From Polytrichum commune (lineage: Eukaryota; Streptophyta; Polytrichopsida; Polytrichales; Polytrichaceae), in assembly GCA_950295325.1 (NCBI GenBank), contig OX485807.1, positions 28,615,666 through 28,679,665 of the forward strand: a DNA stretch of 64,000 nt, given 5' to 3'. Each line of letters opens with the position of its first letter. Position 1 is the stretch's first letter. This document shows, in pieces, positions 5,986-57,619 of the stretch. Below the pieces are notes generated by a model. It searched no databases. It saw only the letters and a list, made by a program, of their open reading frames with translations, and was not told the origin of the DNA. Position numbers and translations under genes: made by a program.

Positions 5986-5989
5986 GACT

Positions 5990-11471: not shown

Positions 11472-11986
11472 TGTCGTGTAAACTAAGATCGTTAAACACA
11501 ACAGATCGAGTGTCGTCATCAACATCAATTAGCAAAATAAACATAACAAACTAATATGCTAAACAACCACCTCTTCAAGAAACTAAGAAGTCTTCTTACA
11601 AAGCTTAAGAAACTTTAAAATTCACACACAAGAGTCAAGCTATCTCTCACTCCACAAAGGGAGAATCCAAGAGTGCAAGTGATGGAGAAAAAATGCAAAG
11701 GCTTTACTCATGATCTACTATACCATAGCCATAAGATAACAACAACAAGCTCTCTCTCTCTCAAAAAACACTCACAAGACTTGACTTGACAACAATGGCA
11801 AGTCAAGATGCCTTCATCTCCACATAATCCCAATCTTATGTGGATTTCATCCATGGAGTGGATGAACAACTAACTAGGACTCCCAATGGAGTCCATAATC
11901 CATCCAAACATACATGGACTCCTAATGGAGTCCATTTACTCCTAATTTGACGTGACTTGGCCCCCGATGTCGCCTCACGTGATAGC
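11472..11986 (-). repeat. 3' LTR of the gypsy element (atypical structure)
   Basis: The core (11575-11982) matches 32793-33200 with 11 differences in 408 positions by my count, which marks it as the partner LTR. On the minus strand it begins near T(A/G)TCACGTGAGG. Beyond the core the 3' end is a 108 bp block (11472-11579) that the 5' LTR lacks. That block occurs again at 11987-12094, just inside the core, with two differences. The outer boundary is taken from the terminal GACA and the TTAT flank. Confidence 0.65.
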
Positions 11987-12094
11987 TGTCGTGTAAACTA
12001 AGATCGTTAAACACAACAGATCGAGTGTCGTCATCAACATCAATTAGCAAAATAAACATAGCAAATTAATATGCTAAACAACCACCTCTTCAAG
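11987..12094 (-). repeat. 108 bp block duplicated on both sides of the 3' LTR core
   Basis: It is nearly identical to 11472-11579 in the same orientation (two mismatches seen). On the minus strand it directly follows a G-rich purine tract (CTAGGGGGGG, about 12095-12105) that could serve as polypurine tract. Confidence 0.7.
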
Positions 12095-12419
12095 TGCCCC
12101 CCCTAGCAGATAAGGAGCCCCTCCAATCGGCTAGGAACAAACACACTCATCGGTAGAGGTGTTGAACATGATGAGGTTGTTGCTACATCTATACATATCC
12201 AATTGGGTAGTGGTAATCTAAGGAATTAAATTCATGGTTGAGGAAGTAAGCCAAGAACTGTAGGCTGGGTGTAATGTGAGCCCCATCCTTAATCGCCTTC
12301 AACAATTTATGTTGAATTCTTTGATAACTCTCCCAATGTGATTTTCAATCCCATAAAACTTCCGACCAACTAGATAACAACTTCACCACTAAGACATGTG
12401 ACAAACATCCACAAAGTCC
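12095..12419 (-). other. Non-coding tail of gypsy between pol and 3' LTR
   Basis: No reading frame of note is present. On the minus strand it ends in a purine-rich CTAGGGGGGG tract next to the LTR-associated block, a plausible primer site for plus-strand DNA synthesis. Confidence 0.4.
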
Positions 12420-12941
12420 CTAATCATGATCATTAATGGCCATGGAGTGGGAGGCTTTCCGACAACGAGGACAAACCCAATTGCCAAAAGGAAGAGTCAA
12501 AAGGGGAGGTGTCAAACATGCCATGTGCCATCCACGTTGACAATGGTCGCACAATAACATCGTTGCAGCTCCTTTCTTCTCTCCACACACATAACAAGGC
12601 AGACCCTGTGGTACAACCGCCAACTCGGGATGCACAGAGCCGTCGATGGGAAGGTGACATGGAGCACAATTCTTTGAATGCTCACGACATTCCCGTCCAT
12701 CCTTGCCTTCAAGCAATAATATACCACTTGGTAAAACATCTTTTACCCGCAAAATTGTGCGCCCAACCTTGACATCCAATGTCGTAGGCGCCTCCCGTTG
12801 CAAGTAAACATAATCTCCCTTGGAAAATCTACGAACCTGAGGTCGATAAGCTCCACTGCGGATCCGGGCATACCGTAATGTATCACGATGTTGAGCTATG
12901 TTTAAGTTCTCCATGGCCATAGGCATGGCCTTTTGAAAGAA
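12420..12941 (-). CDS. Integrase C-terminal region with terminal PHD finger
   Basis: The first ~90 residues hold the integrase C-terminal SH3-like region (FSKGDYVYLQRE) and end in HSKNCAPCHLP. Residues 111-155 of the open segment that starts at 12926 (12462-12596) form a complete C4HC3 PHD finger: CYVC, CDHC, GWH, MAC, CPRC, with the usual aromatic residue before the last Cys pair (NWVCPRC). PHD fingers commonly bind histone H3 tails, so this module may steer integration or tether the particle to chromatin, as chromodomains do in chromoviruses. It lies in the same frame as the integrase core, separated from it only by a TAA at 12942-12944. Confidence 0.85.
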   Translation of the reverse strand, partial: FFQKAMPMAMENLNIAQHRDTLRYARIRSGAYRPQVRRFSKGDYVYLQREAPTTLDVKVGRTILRVKDVLPSGILLLEGKDGRECREHSKNCAPCHLPIDGSVHPELAVVPQGLPCYVCGEKKGAATMLLCDHCQRGWHMACLTPPLLTLPFGNWVCPRCRKASHSMAINDHD

Positions 12942-14141
12942 TTATGCTCGGTCATAAAGACATTGAGCCCAAACATCTAGATCATCCAAGTCTACCACAG
13001 GAGCCAATTTCTTTCGCACGGAGCTAGGTAAAATTGGTTCCCGTCCATACAAGAGTTGGTAAGGACTATAGGATGCCAAAGATGTTTGCCTGCTGAAACG
13101 GTAACCCATTGCTATCCATGGTAACATCAAGTCCCAATCGCGATGGTTACCATGAAACAACCCATACTTCCACAAACCGCGTTTGACAGTCTGAACAACT
13201 CGTTCAGCTAAGCCATCTGCCTCAGGGTGATCTCTGGAAGTTGTTCGATGATCAATCAAAGCCTTAGTACATAAAGCCTCGAAAGATCCAAGAAATTCTT
13301 TCCCTTGATCTGTCAACACCTCTGCAGGTGCTCCAAACCGTGCCAAAACTCGATTAAGAAATGCCATAGCCGCCAATTCTGAGGAATTTTGGGGAAGAGC
13401 CACGAGTTCAATCCACTTACTAAAATGCTCCACCATCACAAATACATACTTTGCCCCACGTGGAGTGATAGTAAGCGGTCTGGCAAAATCCAAAGACCAA
13501 CGATATCCCAAACCCATAATAGGTAAAGGCTGAAGTTGAGGTGATAAAATATTAAAACTTGACCTGACCTGGTCACATACTTCACACCTAGAAACATAAG
13601 TGACAACCTGTTGATACATACCAGTCCACCAATATTGGTTGCGCAACATAGAGTGTGTCCTTCGCACTCCAAAATGTCCAAGCTCCTCGTGCACTTGCCG
13701 CACTAAAGAAGCTCTTTGATCTGGCCTTGGAACGATGCGCCTCATTCCGTTCGGCCACACACGAAATAACAAGCTGTTTGCCCAATGAAACCTTGTTATT
13801 CGATGGCTAACTCTATCTCGCTCCATAGCAGATAGTCCAAGAGGAAATATCCCTTGTTGAAGTTTGTGCAAGACCGCCTGGTCTTCCCACACATCACTAA
13901 CAACGAGAGATTTATCAACCTCCTCATCTTGTTCTTCCACAAGGATCTCAGCAGCCAATTCCGACATCATTGTAAGATATGTGGCAGCATGCCAACCCGA
14001 CACTGCCTCACGATTACAATCTCCATGCCACCTGGCTCCAATTAAATCCTTATCTGAAGGACTTGGATTGCGAGACAATCCGTTTGCATCTAAGTTGGCA
14101 ATTCTTGCTCGGTGAACAACTTCAAAGTCATATTCTTGAAG
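12942..14141 (-). CDS. Gypsy integrase: zinc-binding and DDE catalytic core
   Basis: The HHCC zinc-binding module is visible (HEELGHFGVRRTH followed by CEVCDQ). The catalytic core has the three acidic positions in SLDFA, LTDQGKEF and ADGLAERVVQ. The downstream W..GYR and LLYGREP stretches are typical of Ty3/gypsy integrases. The segment reads without a stop for about 400 codons, in phase with RNase H upstream (TAA at 14142-14144 between them) and the PHD segment downstream. Confidence 0.93.
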   Translation of the reverse strand, partial: LQEYDFEVVHRARIANLDANGLSRNPSPSDKDLIGARWHGDCNREAVSGWHAATYLTMMSELAAEILVEEQDEEVDKSLVVSDVWEDQAVLHKLQQGIFPLGLSAMERDRVSHRITRFHWANSLLFRVWPNGMRRIVPRPDQRASLVRQVHEELGHFGVRRTHSMLRNQYWWTGMYQQVVTYVSRCEVCDQVRSSFNILSPQLQPLPIMGLGYRWSLDFARPLTITPRGAKYVFVMVEHFSKWIELVALPQNSSELAAMAFLNRVLARFGAPAEVLTDQGKEFLGSFEALCTKALIDHRTTSRDHPEADGLAERVVQTVKRGLWKYGLFHGNHRDWDLMLPWIAMGYRFSRQTSLASYSPYQLLYGREPILPSSVRKKLAPVVDLDDLDVWAQCLYDRA

Positions 14142-14522
14142 TTACAATGCCCACCTAGCAAATTTCCCGGTGAGTTTATTTGATTTCATAAGCCATTTTA
14201 AAGGCTGATGATCAGTCACCAAAGTAAATTTTTGCCCATATAAATAAGGTCGAAAATGTGCAATGGCCCAAACAGCCGCCAAGGCCTCGCCTTCATAAGA
14301 AGAATAATTAGATTCAGCATTATTATTGCTTCTAGATGCATAAGCCACCACATATTCCTTTCCCTCTTCATCTTTCTGTGTTAATACCACTCCCAATCCC
14401 ACTGCACTCCAATCCGTGTGCAATTGAAAAGCTCTAGACATATCCGGGCGTTGAAGCACTGGCGCTGAACCGAGCCTCTGCTGTAATGTATCAAATGCAT
14501 GTTGTTGTTCCCGACTCCAAAT
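14142..14522 (-). pseudogene. RNase H domain of gypsy pol
   Basis: Catalytic-type positions are visible in LHTDWSAVGLG, YEGEALAAVWA and VTDHQPLKWL. The domain joins the reverse transcriptase in the same frame. It is bounded by a TGA at 14523-14525, in a context expecting Trp, and a TAA at 14142-14144, in a context compatible with Gln. Confidence 0.9.
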
Positions 14523-15562
14523 TCATGGTTGGTCTTTCCCCGTGAGAATGGTGAGAGGTTTGGCAATCAAACTAAAGTTTTTGACAAACCTTCTATAATA
14601 ATTTGCCAATCCTAGAAATGCCCGAAGTCGTGGTACATCACTAGGTGCGGGAATTTTGTGCAAAGCATCCACCTTCGCCTGTTGCACACCAAGACCGCCA
14701 GGAACAATCATGTGGCCTAAATAGGGCAATCGATCATGGAAAAACTTACATTTGCCATGATGTAAACGGAGTCCCCACTGTTATAGTCGTTCAAATACCG
14801 CTTGCAAATGTCTCACATGATCCTGTGGACTATTACTAAAGATGATAGCATCATCAATGTAACATCTAGCAAACGGTAAACCAGCCAATAATTGGTCCAT
14901 CACCCGCTGAAATTTAGCTGGTGCATTCTTAAGACCAAATGGCAAAAATTTCCAATGATAAAGTTGATCCTTGCCATCTTTATCAATTCCCCAAAATGCG
15001 GTCTTCATCCGATCACCCAACAACAAAGGTAATTGATGATAACCAGACCTCAAATCCAGAGTGCTGAAAATTCTAGCAAATCCCAGTGCATCAAACAACT
15101 CCTCTGGCATTGGCATTGGATATCGATCCGACTTGGTCTTGCGGTTGATTGGACGATAATCACCACACATCCGTTTTCCGTCCAGTTGCCAAAGATATCT
15201 TTCTTTGAAGGCATAACCGTGGCACAAGCATACTCTCCATTGGAGAGTTCAATCAATTCCGCTGCCAATAATTCTTGACATCGAGTTTGAACACCCAACC
15301 TTTCAGATGTACTAAGTCTGTACGGCCGTCTGAAAATAGGATGGTCGTCCTCGAGTTGAATACGAACAAGTTTACCTTTATATCCTTCAAGATCATGAAG
15401 ACTAAAGGCAAAACAATTACGGTAAGAGCGAATAAATGCCCGTACCTTTCGTGCTTCGACACCAGTAAATTTTGGCCCCACTTCAATTGGCCAATCGTCA
15501 AACTCCGTGGTTTCCTTCTTCATAGAAGGATTGCCACTTGGTGCCAGCACAACCTGTGATTG
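14523..15562 (-). pseudogene. Gypsy reverse transcriptase
   Basis: The N-terminal part (frame open 15550-15050) covers the connector and finger region. The palm continues in another frame with CGDYRPINR, LDLRSGYHQ, FLPFGLKNAPA and the active-site YIDDAIIFS. The thumb side follows with PYLGHMIVPGG and LGLANYYRRF. Damage consists of one frameshift near 15170-15200, a TAA at 14781-14783 and a TGA at 14523-14525. The N-terminal frame is the same one used by the methyltransferase upstream. Confidence 0.92.
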
Positions 15563-15879
15563 CTAGTCCGTGGAGAGGGCAACACCTTTGCCCCCATCAT
15601 CTGTACTTGAATCCAAATGCGTATTCTCTCCACTACAATCAGTTTGTGTAGCTAAATAGCTACCTATATATGAAGTGTCACCAAGAAATAGGAGTGGAAA
15701 CATTTTATGGGCCTCCAACTTCCCAAAATCTTAGGCCAAAGCCGAAAAAATACGTTGGGCTCGAAACTCTTCCGCAACCTGTTGTTTCAAAGAAAATAAT
15801 TCCTCGGTGTCATTGACCTCCATGTGATCCTTGGATTGCGGCTCCATTGCCCGCTGACCATTGTTCTCTGCCCTCAGAG
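15563..15879 (-). pseudogene. Pol linker between methyltransferase and reverse transcriptase
   Basis: The stretch is readable in the methyltransferase/RT frame as a Glu/Gln-rich linker, interrupted by TAA (15731-15733) and TAG (15563-15565). No domain is recognised. Its open, in-phase nature shows that the methyltransferase belongs to the same polyprotein as the reverse transcriptase. Confidence 0.6.
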
Positions 15880-16942
15880 GAAGCTATTGGTCATCCATAC
15901 GTTGTTGAGCAGCAAGACAAATTCCAATTATCCACACAATGCTATTGAGATCCATAGCTTGTCCCAATAGGAAACGTCTCTGACCTTCCTGAAGCCCATG
16001 AGCAGCCGTGGTGCCTGTAGGAAAACCCATGGCTCGTTCCCGCTCATCTGTCGTAGGCTCATCATGAGTTTGGGATTTTTAATCCCAAACCATGCCTGGT
16101 CCACGAGATCGAAATGCAAAAGATTGTGGATATGTCACAAAAGTAGGTAGTGCACCTCTCGGAATTCCCACCTTGTTAATTAATGCAAATGGCAAGGTGT
16201 CATCCTTGATAACTGCCAAAGAAACACGATGAGCATCTAAAATGTCATCCACCTTGCGATTCATAAGGCGGGGAATGCGGGTGATCGCCGCTGAAAGCAC
16301 CTGAGGTGATACCAAATTGGTCCAAAACCAACGAGGCCGATGAGCAAAGGATCCCAAGGATGCAGCATCCAGAAATGTTGGAGTACCCAGAATTTGGTTA
16401 ATGTACTCACCATCCTTCACCACTTTGTGCCGTGTATCACCCAATAATGACACATTTTCAAAAATGTACCCTGGCGGAGTTGATTGGTGGGTAAACCACC
16501 ATTGTGTCAATCGCATCAAATCCGCGAACAAACTAGACCTAGGATCATCCAAACCCTGGCCAGTTCCTGCCCGTGAATGGCCTTGACAAGGCCATCCTGC
16601 AATAATTAAATCCACGTGGCCCAATCTTCTCAAATCCTCATCATTAATCATAGTGACATCTTGAGGAAGTTGACCACAACATCCAAGAATGGCAGTGGCT
16701 GACAATTGTGCGGGGTACCTCAACAACAATTGTTGAATGTAGTGTCGGACGGCTCTGTTGGCTACATATCCATTATCCACATGAATATATCGCCTAACTG
16801 TAATCCCAGCCTCCAACACTGCCGCCAAACCTGTGCCAATGCCCCCAAAGATTTCTACAAAGGACAATACCTTCAGGTGGTGGTTGCCAACGAATGGGTT
16901 AAGCAAAAGAAAATGAGGATGACGTTGGAGGTGTCTCTCCAA
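15880..16942 (-). pseudogene. C5-cytosine DNA methyltransferase domain inside gypsy pol
   Basis: This enzyme class transfers a methyl group from S-adenosylmethionine to cytosine in DNA. Motif I is FGGIGTG (16829-16849); the acidic motif-II-like residue is in IHVDNG; motif IV is WPCQGHS with the catalytic Cys (PCQ 16583-16591). Motif VI is IFENV (ENV 16451-16459) and motif VIII HRPRWFWTN. After a variable target-recognition stretch and one TAA (16079-16081), motif IX/X follows as AMGFPTG (16013-16033) and GQRRFLLGQAMD (15950-15985). All catalytic motifs are therefore present in order in about 340 residues. PCQGxS with downstream AGxxxGxxDxRSxLF recalls Dcm/DNMT1-type enzymes, whereas HRPRWFW and the motif IX/X region recall DNMT3/DRM. 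Its frame differs from the protease (shift near 16900-16940) but equals that of the reverse transcriptase start. Confidence 0.92.
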
Positions 16943-17721
16943 GCCCCAAATCCGCTACAATGTGTCGACAATGGTCGGATAACTCCTTAGGAGTACGCCA
17001 TGGTGGAGGTGGATCCTTGAAATGTCGAGCATAAATTTGTAAAAATGGCAAAATTTGTTGTTTTGCTACATTACAAGCGTAGTCCAATGTTTCCTCCAAC
17101 AAAACTGGAGCACAAGGCAAATCCGCAACTGAACCGCTACAACCAAACATTGCCTCCGCAACCATAGTCATAGAAGTAGCTGCAAATGCTACAGGAATAA
17201 ATACCTTCTTGCCATCTCTAGAAGACCATCCCGGTCTAATCCATGCCTTTTCAGTCCAATTATCCAAACCAAAGCCAAGTGGATAAAGAGCTTGCTGACC
17301 AACAAGTATATCATAGTTGGTAGCATTAGTAACAACACACTTCATTAACAAATGGATGTATGTAGGTCCTGCCCCCACATTAAAAATCAAACGTAGAGGT
17401 GTCTTGGTGTAACCTATTGCATGTTCAGTGCCCCCTACTGAAGTCATAATTGTGAATGGACAAGGATCTAAGTTTGCTGGCGTCAATCCAAGACTGTCAG
17501 CAAGTCCTTTGCCAATCATAACCGGTTGAGCACCGGAATCCATCATAACTCTCAGTGGTGTAGCACGAATAGTAGGCATATCCGCGCGTGAAACGACAAA
17601 CAAAGATTTGTCGTTCATCAGCCGTACAACTCCAGGTTGCAAATTATGCCGCTCGCGAGCAGGCCTTGCAGACACTATAAGAAACCTGCGTTTTTGGGGT
17701 CGTTTTAGGTAAACGGGTTTT
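16899..17721 (-). CDS. Gypsy aspartic protease region
   Basis: The aspartic protease signature MMDSGAQPVMIG sits about 75 residues into the open segment, followed by the usual beta-rich fold including NYDILVGQQALYPLG. Retropepsins cut the Gag-Pol polyprotein. The frame continues gag across the CACTA insertion site: with the insertion and one GTTTT copy removed, gag and protease are in the same phase. The frame ends at about 16899, overlapping the methyltransferase frame, probably because of a mutation near 16900-16940. Confidence 0.88.
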
Positions 17722-17726
17722 GTTTT
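17722..17726. repeat. Left target duplication of the CACTA insertion (GTTTT)
   Basis: GTTTT here and at 29646-29650 flank the insertion. Joining them restores one continuous gag-protease reading phase. The CACTA family normally makes 3 bp duplications, so only part of the five may be true duplication. Confidence 0.6.
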
Positions 17727-18700
17727 CACAGATGTCACTATGTCCGGCAAAAAACATGCTCAGTATTGTAAATTTAAATGGATGTTGCGGGAAACATGTA
17801 ACAGAATTATGCACGACATGTAGATGTTGTGAAGGACGGGCATGTTTTGTTGGATGTCATTTCAATCATGTAGACGTTCTCCAGCAACGTGTGCGAGAAA
17901 CATAAGCACGCCACGTCATCCCCACAGGTCAACCTCTGTGCATGTATAGTCACACTGGTCGTAATGGGCAGATTTACAGAGCTGCCCGGGAAAAAAAATG
18001 TAGGGGAATGGGCAGCTACGTGCGGTTAGCTATGGGAATGGAGCTTCTTCCTAAACAATTTAGGGAATGCCACATAAAGTCCGCATAATCGCTGAATATG
18101 GTGATTTGCTAGCTTCATATTGTCCTCGTACCCATTGAAATATTTTCTGATTGTGAACAAGAGAACAAAGACTTTTGAGGTTTATAGTGTCTTTATGTCT
18201 TTGCCATAATGTCCACATCTTCGGTAAACAATGTAAGACATGAAGGGCACGACTCCCTTTTGTGTTTGTGGCAGTACCGACATTGTAGGTGTACATTGTT
18301 TTTAATTTTATAAGCTTTTCATGTGTTCATTTGAGCTTGCGGCCTATAATTTAAATTCAAATACACAAAGAATCTTCCAATCATTGAAAAATGTGGCACT
18401 TTATTCATCATAAAAACCCGAAAATACATGCGTGGAACTATTCTTGCTCTTATCCAGAGGCTCATGGCCACATTACATAGTGAAATGAACACCCGCTCAT
18501 GCTGAAAATAATGCGCGAAACATATTGTCATCCGTTGGTACATCGTTGATCAGTCAACTGTAGTGGACATTTTTGTGGACGCATGAGTAGACGTCAACTT
18601 TGACATTGGGTTCCTGTCCTGCATGACATGTGTTGTGACACTCTTCGGTACATTGGATGCCACGTGCGCTGTGACGTTGCTTCAGGTGCTTTGGGTCGTC
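17727..18700. repeat. Left subterminal region of CACTA
   Basis: No gene is present. Short repeated words such as ACATGT, GTAGA(T/C)GTT and a GCCACGTCATCC box resemble the subterminal binding sites of CACTA elements. Confidence 0.45.
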
Positions 18701-18706
18701 GCCATT

Positions 18707-21700
18707 TCACTGTGTTTCTTCATGGTCTTCTGGCCCACGATCATCTGCTGCTGCTGGGATGTACACCCCGCCGTCTGTTGCAGGCTCCCTAGTGGGCTCC
18801 ACGTCTTCCAGCTGTGGTTGTAAACCCAAGAAGTCAGCGTCGTTTCCCACATCTATTATGTTTGGCATAGGGTGGTTGATTTGTAGTTTTCTGCGTCTAC
18901 CCCTCACGTCCATTCGACATACAACCTTCCATCCTGGCCTCGTCGGGTCGTTGGAAAAGAAGACTTGTTGACAATGCAATGGAAATGCAAAAGAATTTGA
19001 GTACACTTTGCCATCCATGCGGTTGAAGTTGGCAACAGTGAAGCCATACCGATCCCGTTCGATGTTTGGATGTCGAGAATCCTGGCTTGTGCGGACCCAA
19101 TCGCATACTAGCACAGTCGTGCAATGGTTTCTATAGTCCAACTCTAAAATCTCCTCAATGTAACCCACATACTCCTCGGTTGTCTCTATGGGTTCCCCAT
19201 TTCGCAAGCCCCACGGTACTTGCCGTGTGAAAGAGGCCACAACACATGAATCACGCGTGACGAGGCCGCCCTCAGCGCTACGGACCCGGAAATGCATGCC
19301 AAATGCATACATTTTCCAGTGTGAGATAGCATATCGTTCGGGAGGTTGCGCGTACTAGAGGACATCATCGTCGACATGCTCGCCTGGCTGGCGTTGAAAA
19401 GTCAGTTGCGACGTCAACCATGATGCAAAACGTGGTAGATCCTGCAGTTCCGAGGGGTAGCGCACTGCCACGGAAGGATGGCGGCGGTGAAACATGCGCC
19501 GAAATTCCTCCCTCTCTTTCCAGCGCTCTACTCTAGCCGCCATGTATTCCCTACAAATAACCAAGTGTCAAGTTATTGCGATTGTGTGTCCACCTCATAA
19601 GCAATAAAAATGAACGCGTAACAAGATTGCACATCAACACGTATATCAGATGCAACGGTCTCTGTCAATACCGGTGTCACAAGGGACACCGTCTCCAACA
19701 CATCCTCAGGGTGACCAAAGCATGCTAGAGAATATAAAACATGGAGGCATGGACACATGTTCAGGGGTTCCACTCACTCTCGGTGAGTCTTCAAGGAAGA
19801 GGCATTGTCCAAAACAAATGCATGTGCATAGTTGCGGAACTCATCGGACATCTTCCGCTTTTGTTGTGCGTTGCAACGGAGAATCTCATCATTCATGATT
19901 GCGTCTTCTTCAACATCCCATACCCGATGTGTTGTTCCTCTGTACTGATGCATGTACTCGGTGCAAAAACCTAGCGTGTCATCCATTTGATAACCTTCCG
20001 CTATGTTGCCCTCCGGATGTGCAAGTGTTCTCATATAGTCCTTCAATGTTTTCATGTATCGTTCTATTGGATACATCCACCGACAGTGCATTGGACCGCA
20101 CGTAAACAATTGTTCCACCAAATGCACGGGAAGATGCGTCATAACGTTCATAAATGTCGGAGGAAACTCTTTCTCCAAGACACACGTCGCCATCACCACG
20201 TCCAACATCATAATCTGTGCGTCTCCTTCCCTCACCTCTTTGGCGCAAAGTCTTTGGAAAACTCTGCTCATTTTAATTATAGCAACGCGCACGCTTTCGT
20301 CTAGTATGTTCCGTATAGCCAAAGGTAAAATCTGCATCATGCATCACATTGTAGTTCAGATTGACATTGTGTCTCCTCCTGACAGACATCACCCAAAACA
20401 CAACGATAAGCATGCATCGTTGTTGGAGCACTGTCCGATGAACGTCTACATGGACGACCTCACCTCAACAACGTTTGTATGACATCATGGACGACGTCAA
20501 GTGTTGTCTACCTTCACAACTAAGCCGCATTGATACAGGATGGCGTACTAGAATTTGAGAAAGCTTGCCTGCTGCATCAGAACGTGGTAATCGTGTGTTT
20601 TCATGTACTGCAGTTTGCCATCCGCAAGTCGCTTGTGAATGCTACCAACATAGTTTGTGGGTGTCCGAATGTTGGAGATGATTCCCACAAATTGTGTGCG
20701 TTCATTTGCCCTGAATACATAGGGAGGATGTGGCATATAGTACCCATCACGTTCTCGCCGGGGGGGTTGCAACCATATCTCTTGGCGGATGCCCATGTCC
20801 TCAGCATCTACCCTGTTTCCGGGACTATCATTCATGCCCAAGAGAGTCTTCAATATGTTCTCGCACAAATTCTTCTCACAATGCATGACATCGAGGATGT
20901 GCCGTTCTAGTAGATGCTGCACAAGACACATAACATGTACCATCAATGTAAAGCCAACGCAGTGCACGCCAACTCCTCAAAGACCTCCGGGTACCATGTC
21001 CAACAAGAACATCATAAACCTCGTCAGACGTCCTTGTGGATGTCCTTCCGTCATACGCGTCTGGCTTTGCAGGCGATGTGTCTACTTAAACATTGTCATT
21101 GAACACGAACGCCAAACATGGAGTGACATATAGGCCTCACCTTCTAGTAATCTAGCTCGTACAAAGCGCTCAATCGTTTCACACCTGTGGCGTGCACAGG
21201 ATCGTTGGGTCCGTTCTCTCTCCCACCCATCTGTAGGTATGATTCGCGCCACGCTGCATACCGAATGACATCCCCTCCCGTCATGACCTTTGGCTTCGGA
21301 CGGTGTTCTTGCATGCCATTAAATCTTCTATTGCGGCGATACGGGTGGTGTCGTGGTAAGTATCGATGAATGCCTCCGTATACAATCTTGGAGCCCCTAA
21401 TGCTCCTGTTCAGTAACATGTCCCATGTTTTTGCCATCCTCGCATCCGTGTCTGGTCCACAACAAGGGCACTCCTTGTAGCCCTTACAAGTAAGACCAGA
21501 AATGAGGCCATATGCGGGGAAATCGGAAATGGTCCACATAAGTAAGGCACGCAAGGTGAAAGTGCGATTCCCCCGCGGTTGTGAGAAGTCTAGTGCTTCC
21601 ACCCCATGCCAAAGTTCTTGGAGCTCCTTCAATAGTGGACGTATGAACACATCAATATTTGCAGAGGATGGCGACTTCTTTCCTGAAATCAATATGCACA

Positions 21701-22910
21701 ATGATATGAAAAACATTTTTGTCACCAACCATGGGTTGAAGTTGTAAATCAGAATCAACACCGGCCACGTTGACCAGTTGGTGTTGCTTAGCTTGAAAGG
21801 ATTCACCCCATCCAGTGCTAGAGCCAGTCGCATGTTCCGGTCGTCACGTCTAAAATTGCCGAACGCGATGTCCGAGTTGACGTGCTTCCATGCCGGACTG
21901 TCGACCACTGAACGCATGATGCCGTCAGTACTGACGTGTTTGGTGTGGCCTGTCAATAGACGCGCTATCTCAGACGAGCGCCACATCCATTTGAACCTTG
22001 GAATTAGGGGGAAGTGTCGGATTACTCTCGCGGCAATGTTGTTGCTGCCATCTATCCATCGTCTTTGTGTGCACTTCGGACATACATCCAGTGTTGCATA
22101 TTCTTCGTCAAATAGAATACAACCATTGGGGCACGCATGGATGTTATTGTAGTTCAAACCCAGCCGGCGGATGCTCTTCCGAGCCGCATAATGAGTTTTC
22201 GGCAATTTGTTGGGCACTGGCAACAAATCACCTGACAAAAAACGAAACAACTCGTCAGTGAATGTGTTGCTCACGCGGAACACCGAGCACATGTTCATGA
22301 TGATGATTGTAGCCGACACTACACTCATTTTTGAGCCCGGGTACAATGCCGTGGTGGCTTCCGTGTACAAACCGTCCAATTCGTCTTCAATGTCGATGTC
22401 TTCCTCGTCCTCCACATGTAAGGGTCCTTCGTCCTCGGCCTCTTCATGCAGTGCATCCCCTCTGCCTAAGGCCTCTAGCACTTGCCGCTCGACCTCGTGG
22501 AATTTGTCCAGGAGGGGGGGTGGTTGTTCTTCGTCAACTCCTCCATTGTCAACGTCCAAATGAACACGTGTTGTGTCCGTTGGGATGTTTTCTATGACAT
22601 CGTTGTCACAACAGATGTCCTTGACCCACATTCCACCCGGTGGATAGCCCTCTGGGGGGTCTCCGCCTAGTAAAGACTTACGCAAAAATGGATCGCGACC
22701 AACCGCCGCATGGTGTTGTCTTATGACTTGGATGCTTTTCCTGCGACCACCCTTGCATTCTCTGCAAGGACACCTAAATGATCGTACATTATGCTCCGTC
22801 GCCACGCGCAATTCCGTGTGAAGTATGATGTCCCCAATAGGCACATGGCGTAGCGTGCGGCCATCTTCAGTGACACGAATGGTCGCACCTCGACGCTGCG
22901 CCGAGCCCAT
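18707..22910 (-). pseudogene. TNP2-type CACTA transposase gene, four exons, two UAG stops
   Basis: Exons read 22910(ATG)-21141, 20916-20569, 20331-19778 and 19550-18707, all joining in phase to ~1171 codons. Exon 1 has the transposase-associated CPCREC zinc region, an acidic linker and the Transposase_21 (TNP2) core. Exon 2 carries RHILDVMHCEKN, exon 3 the DUF4218-like part, exon 4 the DUF4216-like part (NFNRMDGKVYSN). Intron 2 has a GC donor (CAG/GCAAGC). A TAG at 21144-21146 replaces what is normally Trp (ELPYWK-like context) one codon before the first splice donor, and a second TAG lies at 19355-19357. A short upstream exon near 23277-23070 is possible, so the start is provisional. Confidence 0.85.
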
Positions 22911-22929
22911 ATGGCTCCCCCGTTGCAAT

Positions 22930-24378
22930 CCCTAGAACGCCCGTTGAAGATACTTTGAGGGTCGTGTAGCAACCGCGACTCACAGCAACCTAGCTTTAGC
23001 CCACACACATCGCCACCCTTGCTGTCAATGTTCGCAGAGTCCACCATTGAACCTGCCTAAGTGTGTGCCTCCTTGAAGATGCATCCATACCGTGCAAATC
23101 AAATGTGTGCATGTCACCGCTAGTGTCCACAATGCCGTCGGGGTTGCTGAGAACACGTCGAACATGACATCTCCCAAGACACCTAAATGAAGGTTCCCAC
23201 ACGACCCGCTGGGTGTTCAACAAAAACACATGTGTGGACTCTGATTGGTGTAGAATTCCTTGGCCATTGAAGACCATCTGCGCAAAGCGCTAGGTCTCAC
23301 ATGCATCCCCTACTCTCCAGACCTCGCTTCTTTGGAATGACCACTAAAATCACTATGCACGGAGGACTTTCGTTGTGGAGGTCACTTTGCCATTCATCTT
23401 ATCGGTGGCATGACATTTTCAGTCCATCGCTCAATGAACACCACACTTTGTGAGAATCACCCACACGCCAATTTGGGTGTCCAACATGACATCTGTGGAA
23501 ACAGTGGTTTCTACCACCCGAGTAAAAAATCCATGTAAATGTCAGTTTCCCACGTGTCCATAGGGTATCCTTCAAACTTGATGCCCCAGAAGAGCTCGAG
23601 CAGGCTCGCGGGCATCCTCTAAACCCTAAGCACGGCGGTGAACCTTTTTTGCTGCTGTGAAAGCACAACACTTGGGAACATGGCGATGTCGCGTGCAACA
23701 TGTGCGACGGCTAGGGTTGTCAACTATGCCGACACATTCCAACAAGCGTGTAGGGTGGACGCAGATGACTCCGAGGCAGCACAGGTGCTATCCAATTTGG
23801 TGTTACAATGTACATAGAACAATGCGACGACATCTACCACAAAACTCAACACCTTCGACACCACCCAACCCGCACATTGCCGCCGTAGTTCACGCCTACT
23901 CCAAATGTTTAGGAGTGAAAACCACATGGCAGATGCTCCATCAAGAAACATACATGACAATCCACCTGCGCCACAGGTGAATCTAACTTAGCCTACGTGT
24001 GCTTCATAATTTCTACAATTAACAAAGGGGGATTTTTGAGGGATGCTGAAATTTTTCGGCCGCCACCGCCGGAGCTCCTCGGCAATGGCGGTATTGGCGT
24101 CCGGACGGACAAGGGTCTTCTATTGCGGCTATGGGTCCCCATATGGCCATAGGAACCTCCATGCCCTTAGGGCTTCTGCCGAGGGGGCTCCATGTGGCAT
24201 CCACGGTTATAGGTCTATAGGAGAGCTCGGCTATAGGACTCTGCGCGGGCATAGGTCACGCTGTCATCCTCATTACGCCCAGATGCTCACACATGCGTCC
24301 TTTGTCTTTGTTTCGGTGTTCTTTGTCTTTGTTTCGGTGTTCTCTTCGACACTCCTGTGCCGCCCCCCATAGTCAAAA
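22930..24378. promoter_or_regulatory. Divergent intergenic region between the two CACTA genes
   Basis: It separates the head-to-head TNP2 and second-gene starts and should hold both promoters. A minus-strand open segment from ATG at 23277 to a possible donor near 23055 could be a 5' exon of TNP2. A GC-rich stretch lies at 24040-24260. No individual promoter element is convincing. Confidence 0.4.
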
Positions 24379-27300
24379 ATGGTGCGTTCACGCGATCGGA
24401 GCGGGAAGCGCAAGCCCACCTCTCCAGATTCCATGGCTCCCCCCGATGTGGATGTTGCTGCATTGAGGCAGCACAGTCGAGCGGCGGGAGAGAGGAGGTT
24501 GAAGGCCAGGGAGGATGTGAGGAGCGTGCTGCCCTCTAGATGTAGAGCACAAGTGAAGCGTCACTCACCTCCTCTGAAGCGCAGCAGGGTAATTGAGGTG
24601 AGCACTTCGGGTGAGGAGGCAGAAGAGGGCGACCATAGCGAAGGGATGAGTGATCGACAACAATCCTGGAGGTATGTGTTGTTGTCGCATTTGAATTTCG
24701 CTATTTCACATTGTCGCCTCACCTCGGCATAGGCTGTACTTGCCTTTCGGCACCTACATGTGGCTCCTCGTACTGGGTAGGGTTTGTTTGTTGCTCTAAG
24801 TGTGCCACAAAGAATTTCTCACTTGCCTGCGTCGACGCCGCTGTCTGCGTCACCGGATGCATCTCCTTAGACGTGCGAGTGTCTATGTTGACATCCAACC
24901 TGAAAATTAATGATGGCAGGGTTAGGGTAATACAGTAGTGGTGCCTCGTCTTTGCTTGCAGACAAAGCGCATGATACAGGGTTCAGTGCGCAGGGTAAAA
25001 TGGGTAGTGTTCGTTTGTTTGGCTAAGAGTCTCAGAAAGCAGGAATCCAGTTGTCTATGTCGACGCCATTGTCGGTGTCTACGAACGCAGCTAATTATTC
25101 GGGTTAGTGTATATGTTGACGTCTAGCCTGAAAATTTAGGGAGCCAGGGTTAGGGTAGTTGGACTAAGCAACCTTGAGCGCAATGGATGATTGAGCAGTG
25201 GATTTGTAGGACCCTTGTAGAATGGTCAAATATTTATGCTATTGTGTTGGTTTGTGTCATGTCTATCTTAGGAATGGTTTGCATGCAATTTAATATACAA
25301 TAAAATAATATTTTAGAAGATTATGGAATGATGTGCCTAATGTGACTAATACCCAGCCGGGGTATTAGTCACATTAGTCACATCAAGATAAAATCTTGCA
25401 CAACTCTCACACCCCGAGGCCTAATTTTGTGATAATTTTTGGGGTAGTTGCCACATCAAAGAAGTTTCAATTTTGCAAGTTCTTATGGGCATTGGATTTT
25501 GTGACTTATTATTATAAATTTTTGGTTTATTTAACTTTTAATTCAATTTTAAATTGAGAAACGGTTAGAATGGCTAAATGTTTATGCTATTGTGTTGGTT
25601 TGTGTCATGTCTATCATAGGAATGGCTTGCATGCAATTTAATATACAATAAAATAAAATTTTAGAAGATCATGGAATGATGTGACTAATGTGACTAATAC
25701 CCAACCGGGGTATTAGTCACATTAGTCACATTAGTTACAACATTGTAAAATCTTGCATAAATTTCATTCAAAGTGGTTGGCTAAGGCACCATGTGCCAAG
25801 ACTTTATGGCACTTCACATACCAACAATTTCCACTTGATATTAATTGTCCACATTTGATTACTGTTGATTCCATCGCAACCTCATCGCCATTTCCAATTT
25901 CCTCTTACTTCCAACAAAGTTTACTTGGTTTTCAGTTGGCTATCTTCACGTTTTTGTGTAGTGTAGGTTCGTTGCAGGCAGAGCGAATGATCCAGGGATG
26001 AGTGATTTGGGTAAACTGGGTAGGGTTCGCGTGCTGGTTTAAGTGAGTCACAAACAAGTCCAACACCTGATAGCATGGACGCGAGGATGTCTATGTTGAT
26101 GTCCAACTGGGTAGGGGGCGTTTGGTAACGCTAGCGTCGGTGACTAAGGAAAACACCTGAATGTATGTTGCTGCCCTGGCGCTATCTCAGACATCATCTA
26201 CACACAGATAGGATGTAATGGTCCAGGGAATGTGGTGTGTGCAGCCGAGGCTACGCAACACCTTCGGACACAGAAGACTCTGAGGGAGGCAACAGTGATG
26301 CGGTGGAAACCTCGCAGCGGAAACCATCACGAAAGGGAGCAGGGAGCACGGGCATGAAGAAACGAGTGGAACTGGACGCACAGGGACAACCTTTTGGCTC
26401 AATGAAGGCCGTACTCGCCAGCGATATCAAGAAGTATGCCAAGGATTTGGATCCCACGACGGGGTGGGAAGGCCAACCACGGCATGAGAGAAAGCGGTTA
26501 TTCCGCCGCTTGTACACAGGTAAGCGTAGCACATGATTTATGCCAAAGTACCTGGGCTCATGTCTCTTTAAACATTAACGCTGGTCCTTCAGATCTGTGT
26601 CCAAACCGTCATCGCTAGGAACATGTGCAGGGACACGAAGACGTCGCTTCGAACATCCACCGTGACGGCAATGCGTTTGTATTTTAATCCCTCTTTCTGC
26701 ATGAGCAATCATTGTTTCTAAGAATGAGTTGTTGTTGGTATCCTTTGCACACCAGAATGGCAGCTGTGCGGGCATAGCGATAAAGTTTGCGAGAAGTGGA
26801 TGCGGCCAATCATCACAAAGGTCCTCATCAACACTCATTGGAAACTAAATCAGCTTATTGACAACAATGCCGCCAAACTAGCTGACGTGGATGCAGAGCA
26901 CTGGAAGACACTAGTTTCTATGCGCGATACCGAGGCCGCGCAGGTAAAGTCTGACCACATGCGAACTATCTCAAAAGGGAAAGGGTCGACCACAGCTCAG
27001 ATGAAAGCAATTGAAAGGGACGTCGTGTCACGATTGGTAAGTAACCAGCGAGGTTTTGTTGAAGCAGATGTTGGTGTTGACATCAGTTGTGTCCGTATAT
27101 GTAACCTCATCCATCAAGAACGACGTCATTTTTGATGAGCTGCGTCTGACTCAGCGTAGTGTTTGCTTGAAGTGGAAGATGTTCATTTAATTTTTGAATT
27201 CATTGGAGCATACATTCATGTGAGGCTGGCCTTCTGGTGGCACTTGGTGCATTCACATGTTCTAGTCAAGCCTTTTTTGTCACGTGTAATCGAAAATAAG

Positions 27301-28440
27301 GGTTGCGGTTTTTGCAGACGATGTTGAAAAGCCGGCCACCGTATGATGTTGAGGTCGACGCAGAAGTCGCCAAAGAATACCAACGCCTACAGGAGGAAAA
27401 ACGCAGGGTGAAACCATATCATGGCCGCGAGATAGATGAGGTGTGCACTCGTGTGTCAGAGCTGGAGGGCAGCGTCACACGCCTCGGGGAGAACGTGACG
27501 GCGTCCCATAAACGCCTGGAGGATATGATGCAGTTGATTCTTCAGAATCAGGGCAAGAAGCACGCGAATGTAGGTGAGGACATTACAGAACCTTCGTCAT
27601 CTGCGAAGATCTTGGATACATCTGCTCTGACGTCCACCACGGCAGAGCCCACAACGTTGCCACATCATCCCGTCCCCGCCGCACTAGTGACCGCCTTGGC
27701 CGCTGCGGACACGCGATTGGCATCTAAGGTTCATGTTCCCTATGACGTCGCCGAAGACGCTGCGACCGAGGCTGCCACAAACAACGAAGGAGTCCACAAC
27801 AACGCTGACACCGTTATAGCGTCCATCATTGAGGATATCCTAGACGAAGAAGGTAAAAAATCTATTGATCCACAAGCAACTGAGGACGTAGCAGAGCCCG
27901 AATCAGAGGATGTGCATATGTGTGCCGTGGAAGAGGTCAACGAAGGGCAGCCCGAGGTTGAGGGCATTGCGGATGTGCCCGAAGACATTGCCAACCCAGA
28001 GCAGGTAACATCGACCAAGATCCTATGCTGAAATTCATACAGGGCATTATGTTAATAACGCTAGGCTAAGTCGTTCTTCATGTTGACGTCCTCAATGATG
28101 TTCTGCGTGACATACACCTTGTCGGCAGGATATGTCTTTGGACATCTACTCTGACATAAAGACTTCCCACCCTTGCGGTTGCACATGGGAGGAGGATGTA
28201 CAGGCAACTGAAGAGTCAGCTGGCAGACCTTGCCGCGTTGGGAGGAGCGCGGCTAAATCAGCAATGGTGAAACTCAATGCTCCAAAAGTGGTTGGTTTGC
28301 CTAAACCTCCCCAAATTCCTCCGAAGGTGAGGGAAACAGTGCATGTATGTCAATTTGGGTCGACTCCCTTTGCTTGCGGGAGCATCGACATGAACAAGTG
28401 CACATGCGCACAGTGTATGTATGGCACGTATATGGAATGA
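24379..28440 (+). CDS. Second CACTA gene (TnpA/Ptta-like), five exons
   Basis: Exons 24379-24671, 26245-26519, 26756-27036, 27318-28004 and 28129-28440 all have GT-AG borders and matching phases (2, 1, 0, 0) and give 615 aa without a stop. The N-terminus is basic and Ser-rich. Exon 3 contains a conserved-looking WKTLVSMRDTEAAQVKSD region similar in style to plant Ptta/En-Spm proteins. Exon 4 has a coiled coil (EVCTRVSELEGSVTRLGENV) and an acidic tail. The C-terminus is Cys-rich (CTCAQCMYG). By analogy it would bind subterminal repeats and assist TNP2. Family assignment is inference; the gene structure is well supported. Confidence 0.7.
24775..26118. repeat. Intron 1 of the second CACTA gene: three diverged ~150-200 bp units
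   Basis: Units at about 24775-24935, 24960-25160 and 25976-26118 share GGGTAGGGTTTG-type starts, a GTCGACGC or GACGCGAGG core, and TGTCTATGTTGAC or TATATGTTGACGTC followed by a CCAACCTG or CTAGCCTG tail. The second and third begin with an exon-like CAGACAAAGCGCATGAT or CAGGCAGAGCGAATGAT, which may be decayed duplicated exons. Confidence 0.5.
25208..25757. repeat. Pair of ~190 bp direct repeats, each with a perfect 16 bp hairpin
   Basis: 25208-25402 and 25566-25757 are similar throughout. Each contains a stem AATGTGACTAATACCC and its exact complement around a 5-base loop (25339-25375 and 25687-25723). The ~165 bp between them is AT-rich. The arrangement is like a tiny terminal-repeat element lodged in the CACTA intron. 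Confidence 0.65.
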
Positions 28441-29234
28441 AACCCATTAATACATGTCATGGTGTATTGTGAATGGCGGTGGGATGTGGCAGGTAGGGGG
28501 TGGTACGAAACCGCAGCCGCAACGGAAGAAATGAGACATCGTCAGTAATGCCTATCGTGAAGTTTGGAGTGGCTCAAGCATGTTCTAGCCAGCCTTGCAG
28601 TACTACAATAGCCATTGTAGACTTTGACATTGCAAACAAGCATTAAGTTTTGGTGGACTAGTTTCCGATATGTAATAGCGTCCATGTGGTCGCAAAGTGT
28701 TTACTCAATCAATACAATGTTTTTTATGTTTTGCAACGCCTTGGTCTACAATATTTGTTCCTTGCGTCCTTTATGTCTGTTAAATGGCCATGTGCAACAC
28801 GTGGCGTTGAGGCTGATTCATGTAGATGCCCTAAAAGATGACCCCCTCACAATTGGTAGATCTAATAGCCCTTAGACTCTGTGTCTGCATTGTCATTGAG
28901 TACTTCAGGCCAAAATCCACGCCAACTCAAGCCCATGTTGAAAACGATGTTCTCATGAATGGGATGGTGTCTCCAAGAATTCACCGTCACACATGCTATG
29001 TTTTTCCCACCACATCGTAAAAACATGTAATGTCCAACATGATGCCCCAGAAAACGTTCTTATGTCACATAGGCCATCAAACATAACAATGCACAAAATC
29101 CAAAATCCTTCGAATTGAATATCCGCGTCGACCAAGATGTCTCACATGACATTTCCCTGTCCCAGTGGACGTCTGCCAAACCGCGCACAAGACATATAAT
29201 TTCACAGAACACAATGTCCACGTCAGCAATAATG
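28441..29234. other. Non-coding right part of CACTA
   Basis: No gene is recognised between the second gene and the subterminal repeats. Confidence 0.4.
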
Positions 29235-29380
29235 AATGCCACGTCAGAATTTGGCGGTCCACATCATTTCTAAAGGTGGTCCACGTAACACCCCACGTCA
29301 GCGATAACAAAAGTCACGTCAGCAATTTGGCGGTCCACATCATTTCTAAAGGGGGTCCACATGACACCCCACGTCAGCAA
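29235..29380. repeat. Right subterminal tandem repeats of CACTA
   Basis: Two ~70 bp units (29235-29302, 29309-29380) share CACGTCAG, ATTTGGCGGTCCACATCATT, TCTAAAGG and GGTCCAC, ending in CACCCCACGTCAGC. CCACGTCA recurs further. Such subterminal clusters are where TnpA-like proteins bind in En/Spm. Confidence 0.7.
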
Positions 29381-29645
29381 GGGAACAAATGCAAAACTTG
29401 CCGTTGTGGCACTGCCCGCTTAAAACTTGCCTGCGTGGAGGCCACGTGCCCCTATGTTGGGAGCATGGAAGATGTCGTTTTATATGACGTCACATAAAAA
29501 CATGCTGAAATTCGGCATGTTATCTATGTTTATTGGGCGTTTTTTTCCATATCCTTCATAACGGATTTTAGGTGACGTCTCAGAGGAGTACTTCCATGTC
29601 AAAGCGAACGCGATTTGCCATTTTTTTTACGTCCAAAAAAACAAC

Positions 29646-29650
29646 GTTTT
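29646..29650. repeat. Right target duplication of the CACTA insertion (GTTTT)
   Basis: It matches 17722-17726 and marks the point where the gag frame resumes. Confidence 0.6.
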
Positions 29651-31654
29651 CTTATATTGAGAAATATCTGCAAGATATGCCGCTCCCGCTGCATAATGCG
29701 AAAAGGACGTGTCCACTGCTGAAATTGTTGATGGAGGAATATCAGTGTGCTTACCAAAAGCAATGATCGCCGCATCCGCAAGGCTCGCTCGTAAATTGGC
29801 TAAGTCCTCCACCTCCTCAGCTACAGGTACGTCAACAACAGCTTGGGATACTTGAAGGGATGGCAAATCCGCCTTACCTTCTAACATTTTCCCAGCTAAA
29901 TGGAAAACTCCAGCAGGCTTGAAATCCGGAGCCATCAACTCCGAACCCGAGAAAATTGGCATATGGAGAATTTTATATGCCAATGCCTGCGTAACATCCT
30001 TCGAGATGGAATCCCCATCTCTCAAAGGTACAGGGTTTTTAGCCCCAACAACAGTGGTGTCTACCAATCCAAATGAGAAAGGTAAACGTGCTTGACCAAC
30101 TTGATCCGCTGGTCCGGCATGGCGAGGATGTGACACCTCGTTGCTACCACCACTTGTAGAAGCCACCGCATTTGCCAATGTTTGTGATCGCGTAGAAGCC
30201 GCAGCCACCACCTCTCCAGATGCCCCAAACATATACATGTCCGACCCCGAGGTGCCACCACCCGCATGTGGCTCAGAAATTTGAGCAAAAAATGCAGAAG
30301 ATTTGAGCTTTTGCTCAAGCTCTGCCACCTTAGCCTCAAGACTCTGCTCCCTTGGAGATTTTCCAGTGACATAACTGGCAGGCCGCATCTCAGGATGAAG
30401 TTGGAAACAATGATCCACATCGTGATTAGTGCCACCACAATGGTTACATTTCAATTGTCTCTTCTTAGAATTATCCCCTGCCTTTATTGGTTCTATCTTT
30501 TGTTTTAATTTTCCCAAAGGCTGGGTTTTCTTCTTCTTAGGACAATTGGGATCATTCTTCGAATGACCAGCTTCTCCACAACCCCAACAATGCAAAATCT
30601 TTTGCTCCTTAACGGTTTGAGTCTTAGCTAAACTACTAGTAGCTGTGACAATTCTTCTTGATTTCGTACTCTCTGTCATCCAAGATACCATGTTTGTGGC
30701 ATCGTGTTGACAGAAAGCCCGATCACATCTCTCAACCACGGCAAACGCTTGTGCAAGCGTAGCTCTGCCTTCGTAGTCGAGGATAATCCGAGGTGATGCC
30801 AACTCAAGTAGCCGCTTGTCAATCTTAGACAAGAAGATTTTGACAAGCTGACTCTCAGCAAAAACACCTCCCGACTCAACAGCAAAGCGTGTTGCGAGTC
30901 GCGTATACATGGTCCGTGGAGTGTCATCCTTCTCTCGGCGGAAATCATGAATGCGCTGCATCTGGTCTCGCCGAAATCCACCATACTCCACCTCTAAATG
31001 TGCGACAAATTCAGCAAGGGGATTAAATGGAGGTGGTGGACCAACAGCCGTCAATGTTGCATGTATAGCACGTGCCATCCGTGAAAGGGTAGCCGTGCTA
31101 CTGCCAGCCACTATTGGCCCAAGTGCTAGTTCTTGGTCCTTAGACTCCTCCGGTGGATCCTCCTCCTTTAAGGTGGGTGGAGCTAAGGTGGCAATCGCCC
31201 CATCTTTAAGGGCTGAAATAAGCTCAACCCGGGCCTCCCAATACTGCTCCACCTCCCGAAGTTGTCGCTGATGACCCTCTGTCCAGCGTTCGTAAGTTTG
31301 GAGTGCCTCATACTCCAAATGCTGAGGCAGAAGCTCAAAGGCATACCAATCATTGAAATTGGAAGACCTTTGGCGTTTCTCCTTAATCTAGGTACGAAAT
31401 CGGAGTTCCCAATCGGGCAAGGAAATGCCCCCAGCTCGACCTGAGAACCAATCACGCACTGAACCGTGGTGATCGTCGTCCATTTCGTCGAACGTGCCAA
31501 CACTCCAAATCCGAAGCCTACTAGTAGTGTCCAACGCCGAAATAGGCTCAAAAGCCTTGTTGGTATCTACCTCTGGCTCAAGATTTGTGGTATGCACGTC
31601 CTCCAAATAATCTGGTGATGGAGATCGATAATATCGGCTCCTAGTTTGCACCAT
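29651..31654 (-). pseudogene. Gypsy gag (capsid and nucleocapsid)
   Basis: ATG at 31654 (MVQTRSRYYRS) opens a frame that runs to the CACTA insertion with a single TAG at 31388-31390. The retrotransposon gag capsid region lies around FVAHLEVEYGGFRRDQMQ to LATRFAVESGG. Two zinc knuckles follow: CWGCGEAGHSKNDPNC, with CX2CX4HX6C spacing, and CNHCGGTNHDVDHC, with classic CX2CX4HX4C spacing. Capsid and nucleocapsid package the RNA. The last codons (SQYKK) abut the inserted element, and the phase continues into the protease. Confidence 0.92.
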
Positions 31655-32763
31655 AAAATAATCACTTGAGTACCGGCAACTATCTACAAGGTAATGGCAA
31701 CCTGCACCTGTTGCGGGCTATCTAAATGGCAATCCCTTGCCAAATGCCAAGTGTTTATTTAGGCCCCCCAGAATTCCAAAATTGTGCAAAGGTTTGAGAT
31801 TGGTAATTAAAATTAAAAAAAATCAGCGTTGAAAATGTTAATTTCCAAGGTGATTATGGACTCCAATCAACAAACTAATTGCACCAATGGACTCCTAGGA
31901 AGATTTCACGCAAATTAGGCTCAAATTTCACTCCGTTCGGAGTTAATTTGCTCCCAAAAACAAAAATCAGCGTTGAAATTAATAATTTCAGCAATGATTT
32001 TGAATTCCAATCAACAATCCAATTACACCATTGGATTCCTTGGCAAATTTCACACAAGATAGGCTCAAATTTCACTCCAATCGGAGCTAGTATGCCCCCA
32101 AATTTGAACCTCAAAGTTTGTGAGAATTGGATGCCAAGTTTGAAAGGTGAAAGTAAAAATGTGAAATAAAATAAATAAAATAAAAATATTTGTTTTAATT
32201 AAACAAAAAAAAAACCAAAAATAATAAAAACCAAAAACAAAATAAACAAAAACAAAAAACAAAAAATAAACAAAAACAAAAACAAAAACAAACAAAAATA
32301 AAAATAAACAAATAAACAAATAAAAGGTAAGGGGGCTTACCTTATGGGGCTTGGCTGGCGCCGCCTGCCCGCCCCCGGCCCGGCCTGCACCGCCCGCCCG
32401 GCTTGGAGAACAGGAGCTCCAGGAGCTCCAAGAGGGTCCGGTGAGCTCCGGATCCGTCCGGAGCTCAACAAAAATTAAAAACAAATCGGATTTGAACTAA
32501 AAAAAATTAAACTTTGCTTCCACAATTTGCAAGCAAGAAAGATGTGACTTGAGATTCCATTTGGTCTCAAGATTCAACCATCAACAATTCAAGAAAACAC
32601 AAAGACACAACAAAAGAGATGTGGAGATTTTTCTCAAAATCTTCTTGAGGGTTGCAAGGAATTGCAAACTAAGCTTTCATACACTGTATCACTCATTTGC
32701 TCCCACTACTGGGCCATTCTAGCTCAGAAATACAACCAAAAATGAAAAATAAGCCCAATTGTT
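31655..32763 (-). other. Gypsy 5' leader with a duplicated segment and low-complexity tract
   Basis: It contains a diverged tandem pair (about 31815-31960 and 31962-32100) sharing AAAAATCAGCGTTGAAA, CTCAAATTTCACTCC and TCGGAG. An A/C-rich low-complexity tract follows (32160-32325), then a GC-rich box (32350-32465). A primer binding site could not be placed with confidence. Confidence 0.55.
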
Positions 32764-42352: not shown

Positions 42353-42359
42353 AATTCAT

Positions 42360-52950: not shown

Positions 52951-52954
52951 ACAG

Positions 52955-57617: not shown

Positions 57618-57619
57618 GC

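Follow-up and report, generated by a model that had tools for sequence, protein, structure and literature searches.

The closest described counterpart of the element treated here is KnitGypsy-Dnmt3 of Klebsormidium nitens, a gypsy retrotransposon with a DNMT3 methyltransferase reported in 2018 (de Mendoza et al., PMC5890265; here and below, statements about published work follow excerpts of the cited articles). Dinoflagellates harbour SymbioDIRS-Dnmt3 and SymbioLINE-Dnmt, which are likewise retrotransposon-borne cytosine methyltransferases, the DNMT3 lying in the Pol of the DIRS type (PMC5890265). According to a 2019 article, land plants such as tracheophytes lack methylases encoded by transposons (PMC6338049); a 2025 paper cites the streptophyte case, naming Copia (PMC12344493). 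Here we examine a stretch of 64,000 nucleotides (the window; contig OX485807.1, positions 28,615,666 to 28,679,665) from the genome of the moss Polytrichum commune, in which a first reading made from the letters alone (the sequence-only reading) had recognised a gypsy retrotransposon encoding its own C5-cytosine methyltransferase. That reading took such captures to be reported only from a few algal and protist lineages, in agreement with the literature we found. Sequence comparison indicates, with a probability of about 97%, that the copy in the window is a decayed member of a numerous Ty3/gypsy family in which a DNMT3-class methyltransferase is a fixed domain.

The methyltransferase (MTase) motifs are real and lie where the sequence-only reading had placed them, on the minus strand, with the protease (PR) upstream and reverse transcriptase (RT), RNase H (RH), integrase (IN) and a PHD finger downstream. 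The open reading frame (ORF) 16954-16079 matches PF00145 (E 1.2e-12, 48.4 bits, cut-off 22) and contains motifs I (FGGIGTG), IV (WPCQG), VI (FENV) and VIII (HRPR), and motifs IX/X (ERERAMGFPTGTT...GQAMDL) follow in the same frame beyond a TGA at 16081-16079. For the corresponding domain of L002, a relative with open frames (9,285 bp) that served as the reference for the extent of the window element, DNMT3 is the closest class both by profile search and by fold, and on this footing the methyltransferase is a member of that class. DNMT1, MET1 and CMT appear neither in the profile list nor among the 50 fold matches listed, which excludes nothing.

The window copy itself is dead, because it carries frameshifts near 16867-16842 (PR/MTase) and 15175 (RT), the TGA at 16081-16079 and further stops within RT-IN. 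It is also split by a CACTA insertion of 11,987 bp with a 3-bp target duplication (TCT) and the Pfam domains Transposase_21, DUF4218 and DUF4216, without which the element measures about 9.7 kb. Both the decay and the split had gone unnoticed in the sequence-only reading.

A search of the 407.8-Mb assembly (64 contigs; the seven contigs met are 42 to 78 Mb each, about 406 Mb together) with PF00145 returned 123 scored matches from 353 candidates, all of them above the cut-off. Forty of these matches were selected, mostly for long open frames and not at random; 20 of these copies (L011-L030) were read, and all 20 keep the order PR, MTase, RT, RH, IN, PHD. The claim that the gene is borne by the element rather than nested in it is thereby upheld, in that the domain holds a fixed position between PR and RT across a gypsy family with many copies. 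Fifteen of the copies form subfamily 1 and five (L012, L013, L015, L019, L020) subfamily 2.

A second sample, independent of the choice by MTase, started from the junction between two terminal repeats, B1 and A2, described below. The junction pattern occurs at 289 places with up to three mismatches, against 29 for the reversed control; 100 of these places were listed and 61 element ends examined. At 41 of the 100 junctions an MTase match lies on the same strand, 4.3 to 12.6 kb upstream (judged by position only), and 20 random draws from the remaining 59 gave the MTase in 14 cases (its C-terminal part only in two). As to the other six draws, one stretch begins downstream of the MTase and five hold partial or no element sequence. 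None of the 20 stretches read has element sequence spanning the MTase site and yet lacks the domain, the kind of copy that the sequence-only reading had named as the mark of a local insertion. That a host DNMT gene, or one belonging to a nested transposon, came by chance to lie in one gypsy copy is therefore negligibly probable: the window copy does contain a nested CACTA transposon, but the MTase lies outside the CACTA boundaries, relatives in other genomes carry PR and MTase in one ORF, and all of the other copies, 20 of 20, have the MTase at the identical site and in the identical order, which rules chance out. The same copies, together with the junction sample and the CACTA boundaries, led us to reject one local insertion event, whether of a host gene or of a CACTA gene.

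Some insertions must be very recent, since the two A repeats of the element, A1 and A2, are free of substitutions in two copies (over 334 positions, and over 437 positions with 3 gap positions) and differ by a single one in two others. The window copy has 11 differences over 408 positions.

The place of the enzyme within the element is another matter. The sequence-only reading had the MTase share the frame of RT, which holds for the beginning of RT; between the two, however, stands an in-frame TAG that is conserved (15565-15563 in the window). Because PR and MTase stop at this TAG and RT-RH-IN-PHD follows in frame, the MTase terminates the gag-PR product and would join Pol only by readthrough, and its description as part of pol finds no support in that form. 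In all 22 sequences (L002, the window and the 20 copies) the stop is TAG, never TAA or TGA, and is followed by CAATCA or CAATTA. Subfamily 2 has the UAG-CAAUUA form of the signal, which is that of tobacco mosaic virus. Tobamoviruses, among others, have UAG-CARYYA as their type I readthrough signal (PMC5382211), and the moss elements combine this signal with a downstream ORF in frame.

CARYYA stands behind none of the 283 other in-frame stops of the 20 copies (a count that takes in indel-shifted stretches) and at 48 of the 18,936 in-frame positions of the eight open copies, the conserved site included; in these eight, the TAG is the sole stop of the PR-PHD frame and the second ORF is in frame with the first. 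Four proteins found by database search (P0002, P0003, P0004 and P0007) end at the place corresponding to the TAG. Might the TAG nevertheless be an ordinary stop, with RT-RH-IN-PHD made from a start codon of its own or from a spliced RNA and no readthrough at all? A Met codon does lie 14 codons past the TAG in the window and in 14 of the 15 subfamily-1 copies, but it is missing from all five subfamily-2 copies and from L002, so that an RT starting at its own Met was rejected as a general solution. The frame that runs on across the TAG in the eight copies without further stops, and the invariable TAG with CAAT[TC]A behind it, speak against an ordinary stop as well, and we consider it quite improbable.

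As read from the sequences, a Gag-side readthrough model is very probable, with Gag-PR-MTase as the bulk product and a fusion with RT-RH-IN-PHD as the rarer one. Most ribosomes would stop at the UAG and yield Gag-PR-MTase; a few would read through it and yield the fusion. Because the enzyme sits before the putatively leaky UAG, it would be packed in the particle at Gag-like amounts. The position thus predicts that the enzyme is a main constituent of the particle rather than a Pol domain present in traces.

The ends of the element do not form an ordinary pair of long terminal repeats (LTRs), a candidate we rejected: the repeats are split in the order A1-ORFs-B1-A2-B2, with A alone at the 5' end and B-A-B at the 3' end. 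Of the 20 copies, 16 have B1-A2-B2, with B1 and B2 differing at between 0 and 3 of their 105 to 107 positions. Two copies (L017 and L022) read A-ORFs-B, ending at B1 with a target duplication and no A2-B2, a form that perhaps stems from recombination between B1 and B2; of the remaining two, one has no B2 in the stretch and one no recognisable B end, its PHD lying 2.4 kb further off. The 4-bp target duplications are identical in 12 of the 16 copies with both ends and have one mismatch in the other four. The window element, with termini TG and CA, is flanked on both outer sides by ATAA.

This arrangement combines traits of two groups. The order PR-RT-RNase H-IN with a DDE integrase, and TG...CA ends with a short duplication, agree with Ty3/gypsy elements, but one complete LTR at each end is not found. 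The split direct repeats agree with DIRS elements, but an rve integrase is found where those have a tyrosine recombinase in place of a DDE integrase, and no tyrosine recombinase is among the Pfam matches of the element proteins. Because a polypurine-like tract precedes B1, an ordinary element would have B-A as its LTR, and the integrated ends would then fall inside that would-be LTR, at the junction CA-GC-TG. Closed into a ring, A-ORFs-B-A-B is the same as a two-LTR circle that has been cut at the CA-GC-TG junction, which may be how the form originated.

Selection on the domains was estimated as dN/dS (NG86) from a set of 21 sequences, with PR compared in 21 of them, IN in 17, and MTase and RT in 14 each; only domains free of stops and aligned over at least 90% were admitted, and a pair counted only if its dS was above 0 and could be corrected. 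The MTase has a median of 0.48 within subfamily 1 (43 pairs), 0.27 within subfamily 2 (3 pairs) and 0.12 between them (30 pairs, with dS near 2.3 and saturated). The corresponding values are 0.24, 0.165 and 0.03 for RT and 0.29, 0.18 and 0.04 for IN (dS between subfamilies again saturated), and PR gave 0.52 and 0.57 within subfamilies 1 and 2. Judged by these ratios below 1, the MTase domain as a whole is under purifying selection among copies.

Several observations weigh against an active DNA methyltransferase as the fixed component of the family. First, that selection is weaker than on RT and IN. Second, the algal gypsy enzyme was inactive in yeast, a result its authors call inconclusive (PMC5890265). 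The domain could, moreover, bind nucleic acid without methylating DNA. Finally, the observed/expected CpG ratio of the PR-PHD regions of the copies (0.64-0.73) is close to that of the window (0.64; 0.83 in the WDR26-like exon described below), a mild depletion with no sign of special methylation, which is not telling.

The sequence-only reading had suggested that such an element could hide from host defence or mark its own copies. We put forward, tentatively, self-methylation of the element's cDNA: the MTase would methylate CG sites, either in newly made double-stranded cDNA or in the DNA around the insertion site, and the PHD finger would help tether the integrase to histone tails. It is also possible, if somewhat less so, that the enzyme targets RNA or other host DNA, or damps the activity of the element itself. 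The authors of the algal study name RNA methylation (in the case of the LINE type) and a slowing of transposition among the possibilities, and selection on the MTase is moderate; on the other side, the fold is that of DNMT3 and not DNMT2, and related DNMT3 domains borne by DIRS elements are active in yeast, where they methylate CG (PMC5890265). Taken to its full extent, self-methylation would make this an element that both writes and reads chromatin marks: a DNMT3-type writer packed by way of a leaky stop methylates the element's own cDNA in the particle, the PHD finger picks the site, and a DDE integrase inserts from split repeats, with the junction inside the would-be LTR. This composite scheme we regard as doubtful; if true, a DDE integrase would here serve split direct repeats, which elsewhere are typical of elements with a recombinase.

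Since DNA methylation is a main plant defence against transposons, a family in which selection maintains a methyltransferase of the de novo type presents a puzzle. The family is numerous, partly recent and present in an assembly with very long contigs, so that the puzzle is directly testable.

Table 1. Parts of the window element and of its CACTA insertion (coordinates within the 64,000-nucleotide window).
Feature	Position	Strand	Basis or remark
Whole Ty3/gypsy element	33202-11472	-	Ends placed by comparison with relative L002
Repeat A1, 5' end (TG...)	32793..33202	-	397/408 positions identical to A2
gag region	29660..31693	-	tblastn and blastn match to L002 ORF1; zinc knuckles visible in translation
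CACTA transposon, foreign to the retrotransposon, between gag and PR	17673..29659	-	Boundaries and Pfam
Aspartic protease region (PR)	16899..17672	-	gag-asp_proteas E 0.0003 (below family cut-off); matches L002 ORF1
C5-cytosine methyltransferase, DNMT3 class	15895..16916	-	Pfam; extent from L002 residues 731-1068 and tblastn; fold of L002 domain
TAG-CAATCA ending the gag-PR-MTase ORF	15557..15565	-	Matches type I readthrough signal UAG-CARYYA
Reverse transcriptase region, frameshift near 15175	14523..15562	-	RVT_1 E 3.9e-22 in ORF 14781-15248
RNase H	14142..14522	-	RT_RNaseH E 7.9e-37
Integrase: H2C2 zinc finger and rve core	12942..14141	-	Pfam E 5e-18 and 1.6e-14
PHD finger, C-terminal end of Pol	12462..12596	-	PHD E 8.1e-11
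Polypurine-like tract GCTAGGGGGGGCA, adjoining B1	12095..12107	-	Read from sequence; putative role
Repeat B1	11987..12094	-	106/108 identical to B2
Repeat A2	11575..11984	-	Comparison with A1
Repeat B2, 3' end (...CA)	11472..11579	-	Repeat comparison and inspection of ends and flanks

Within the element, the Pfam scan gave no match for ORF 29627-31387 of the gag region, and the leader between A1 and gag contains a 144-bp tandem duplication (81%, window 31815-32102). Elsewhere, both arms of an inverted duplication (5661-9022 and 47914-53046, 72-86% identity) include a WDR26-like first exon. A WDR26-like gene has its N-terminal exon at 48298-49122 (LisH_WDR26, Pfam); the top match of this exon is a metagenome protein (97%), its best named match is from Sphagnum balticum (72%), and named flowering plants reach 47-56%, in a protein search that covered 0.55 to 1.75 times the query length, a range outside which full-length WDR26 of other mosses falls. 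Together with the seven very long contigs, these matches fit a moss host; a bacterial origin of the window was rejected, since it belongs to a contig of 53 Mb and contains plant genes. At 39312-42355 an ORF for a DDE_Tnp_4 transposase converges with a Myb/SANT-like ORF, a pair known from PIF/Harbinger transposons. Membrane protein exons at 53368-57650, AI-2E_transport-like (below cut-off), probably represent a host gene.

Relatives of the methyltransferase are found in other genomes. Searching with the domain of the window gave 115 proteins, and with the L002 domain within its ORF 33, many of them metagenome proteins; the latter set includes a gag-PR-MTase polyprotein of Marchantia polymorpha (P0135) and, from Calypogeia fissa, a shorter polyprotein (P0133). 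A tree of 27 domains places the window with subfamily 1 of its own genome (100/100), and in it both liverworts cluster with one metagenome protein. In a more distant group (P0143, P0144, P0147, P0148), whose placement is unsure owing to long branches, the MTase precedes the integrase and all four members have a PHD finger; in P0144 and P0148, both of which include RT, the MTase stands between RNase H and integrase. NCBIfam offered only its general dcm model, below cut-off, for three queries of the gag-PR-MTase type, and no methyltransferase model for P0148. A search of viral contigs gave one distant match (L001, 33%). For the motif counts, 41 sequences were inspected and the 32 with a motif IV region entered the count. 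P0144 and P0148 have EC instead of PC in motif IV, and WEC occurs also in P0054 and P0140. L002 is filed under a 'Synechococcales' metagenome-assembled genome and P0002 under an 'Obscuribacterales' one; to judge from their content, both are probably plant DNA contaminating those bins.

In the open-licence literature of PubMed Central we recognised no report that combines a moss or liverwort host, a PHD-finger gypsy element, split repeats and readthrough. We regard as new (1) the land-plant host, with liverwort relatives, (2) a methyltransferase that ends the gag-PR ORF before UAG-CAAU(C/U)A and (3) split direct repeats with 4-bp target duplications throughout the family.

Each known system shares some of these features. 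Phalaenopsis has gypsy elements with an m6A RNA demethylase domain, again a plant gypsy lineage that captured a nucleic-acid-modifying enzyme, but an AlkB-type demethylase encoded in an additional ORF and acting on RNA (PMC9289625). The tobamovirus type I leaky UAG has the same UAG and CARYYA, but in virus replicase genes (PMC5382211), whereas the moss element carries the signal between the MTase and RT of a retrotransposon, where readthrough is predicted. SymbioDIRS-Dnmt3 and SymbioLINE-Dnmt use DIRS (tyrosine recombinase) and LINE machinery, and the moss element a DDE integrase. KnitGypsy-Dnmt3, compared here by its published description, shares most: a methyltransferase of the DNMT3 class joined to gypsy domains, a copy number of several, selection of the purifying kind, and DIRS-like repeats beside the gypsy domains (PMC5890265). 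The words PHD and protease are absent from the main text of that article, and the algal methyltransferase is described as lying inside the Pol polyprotein ORF, whereas that of the moss ends the gag-PR ORF before UAG-CAAUYA. The host of the one is an alga and that of the other a land plant, so that gypsy elements bearing a DNMT are extended from an alga to land plants.
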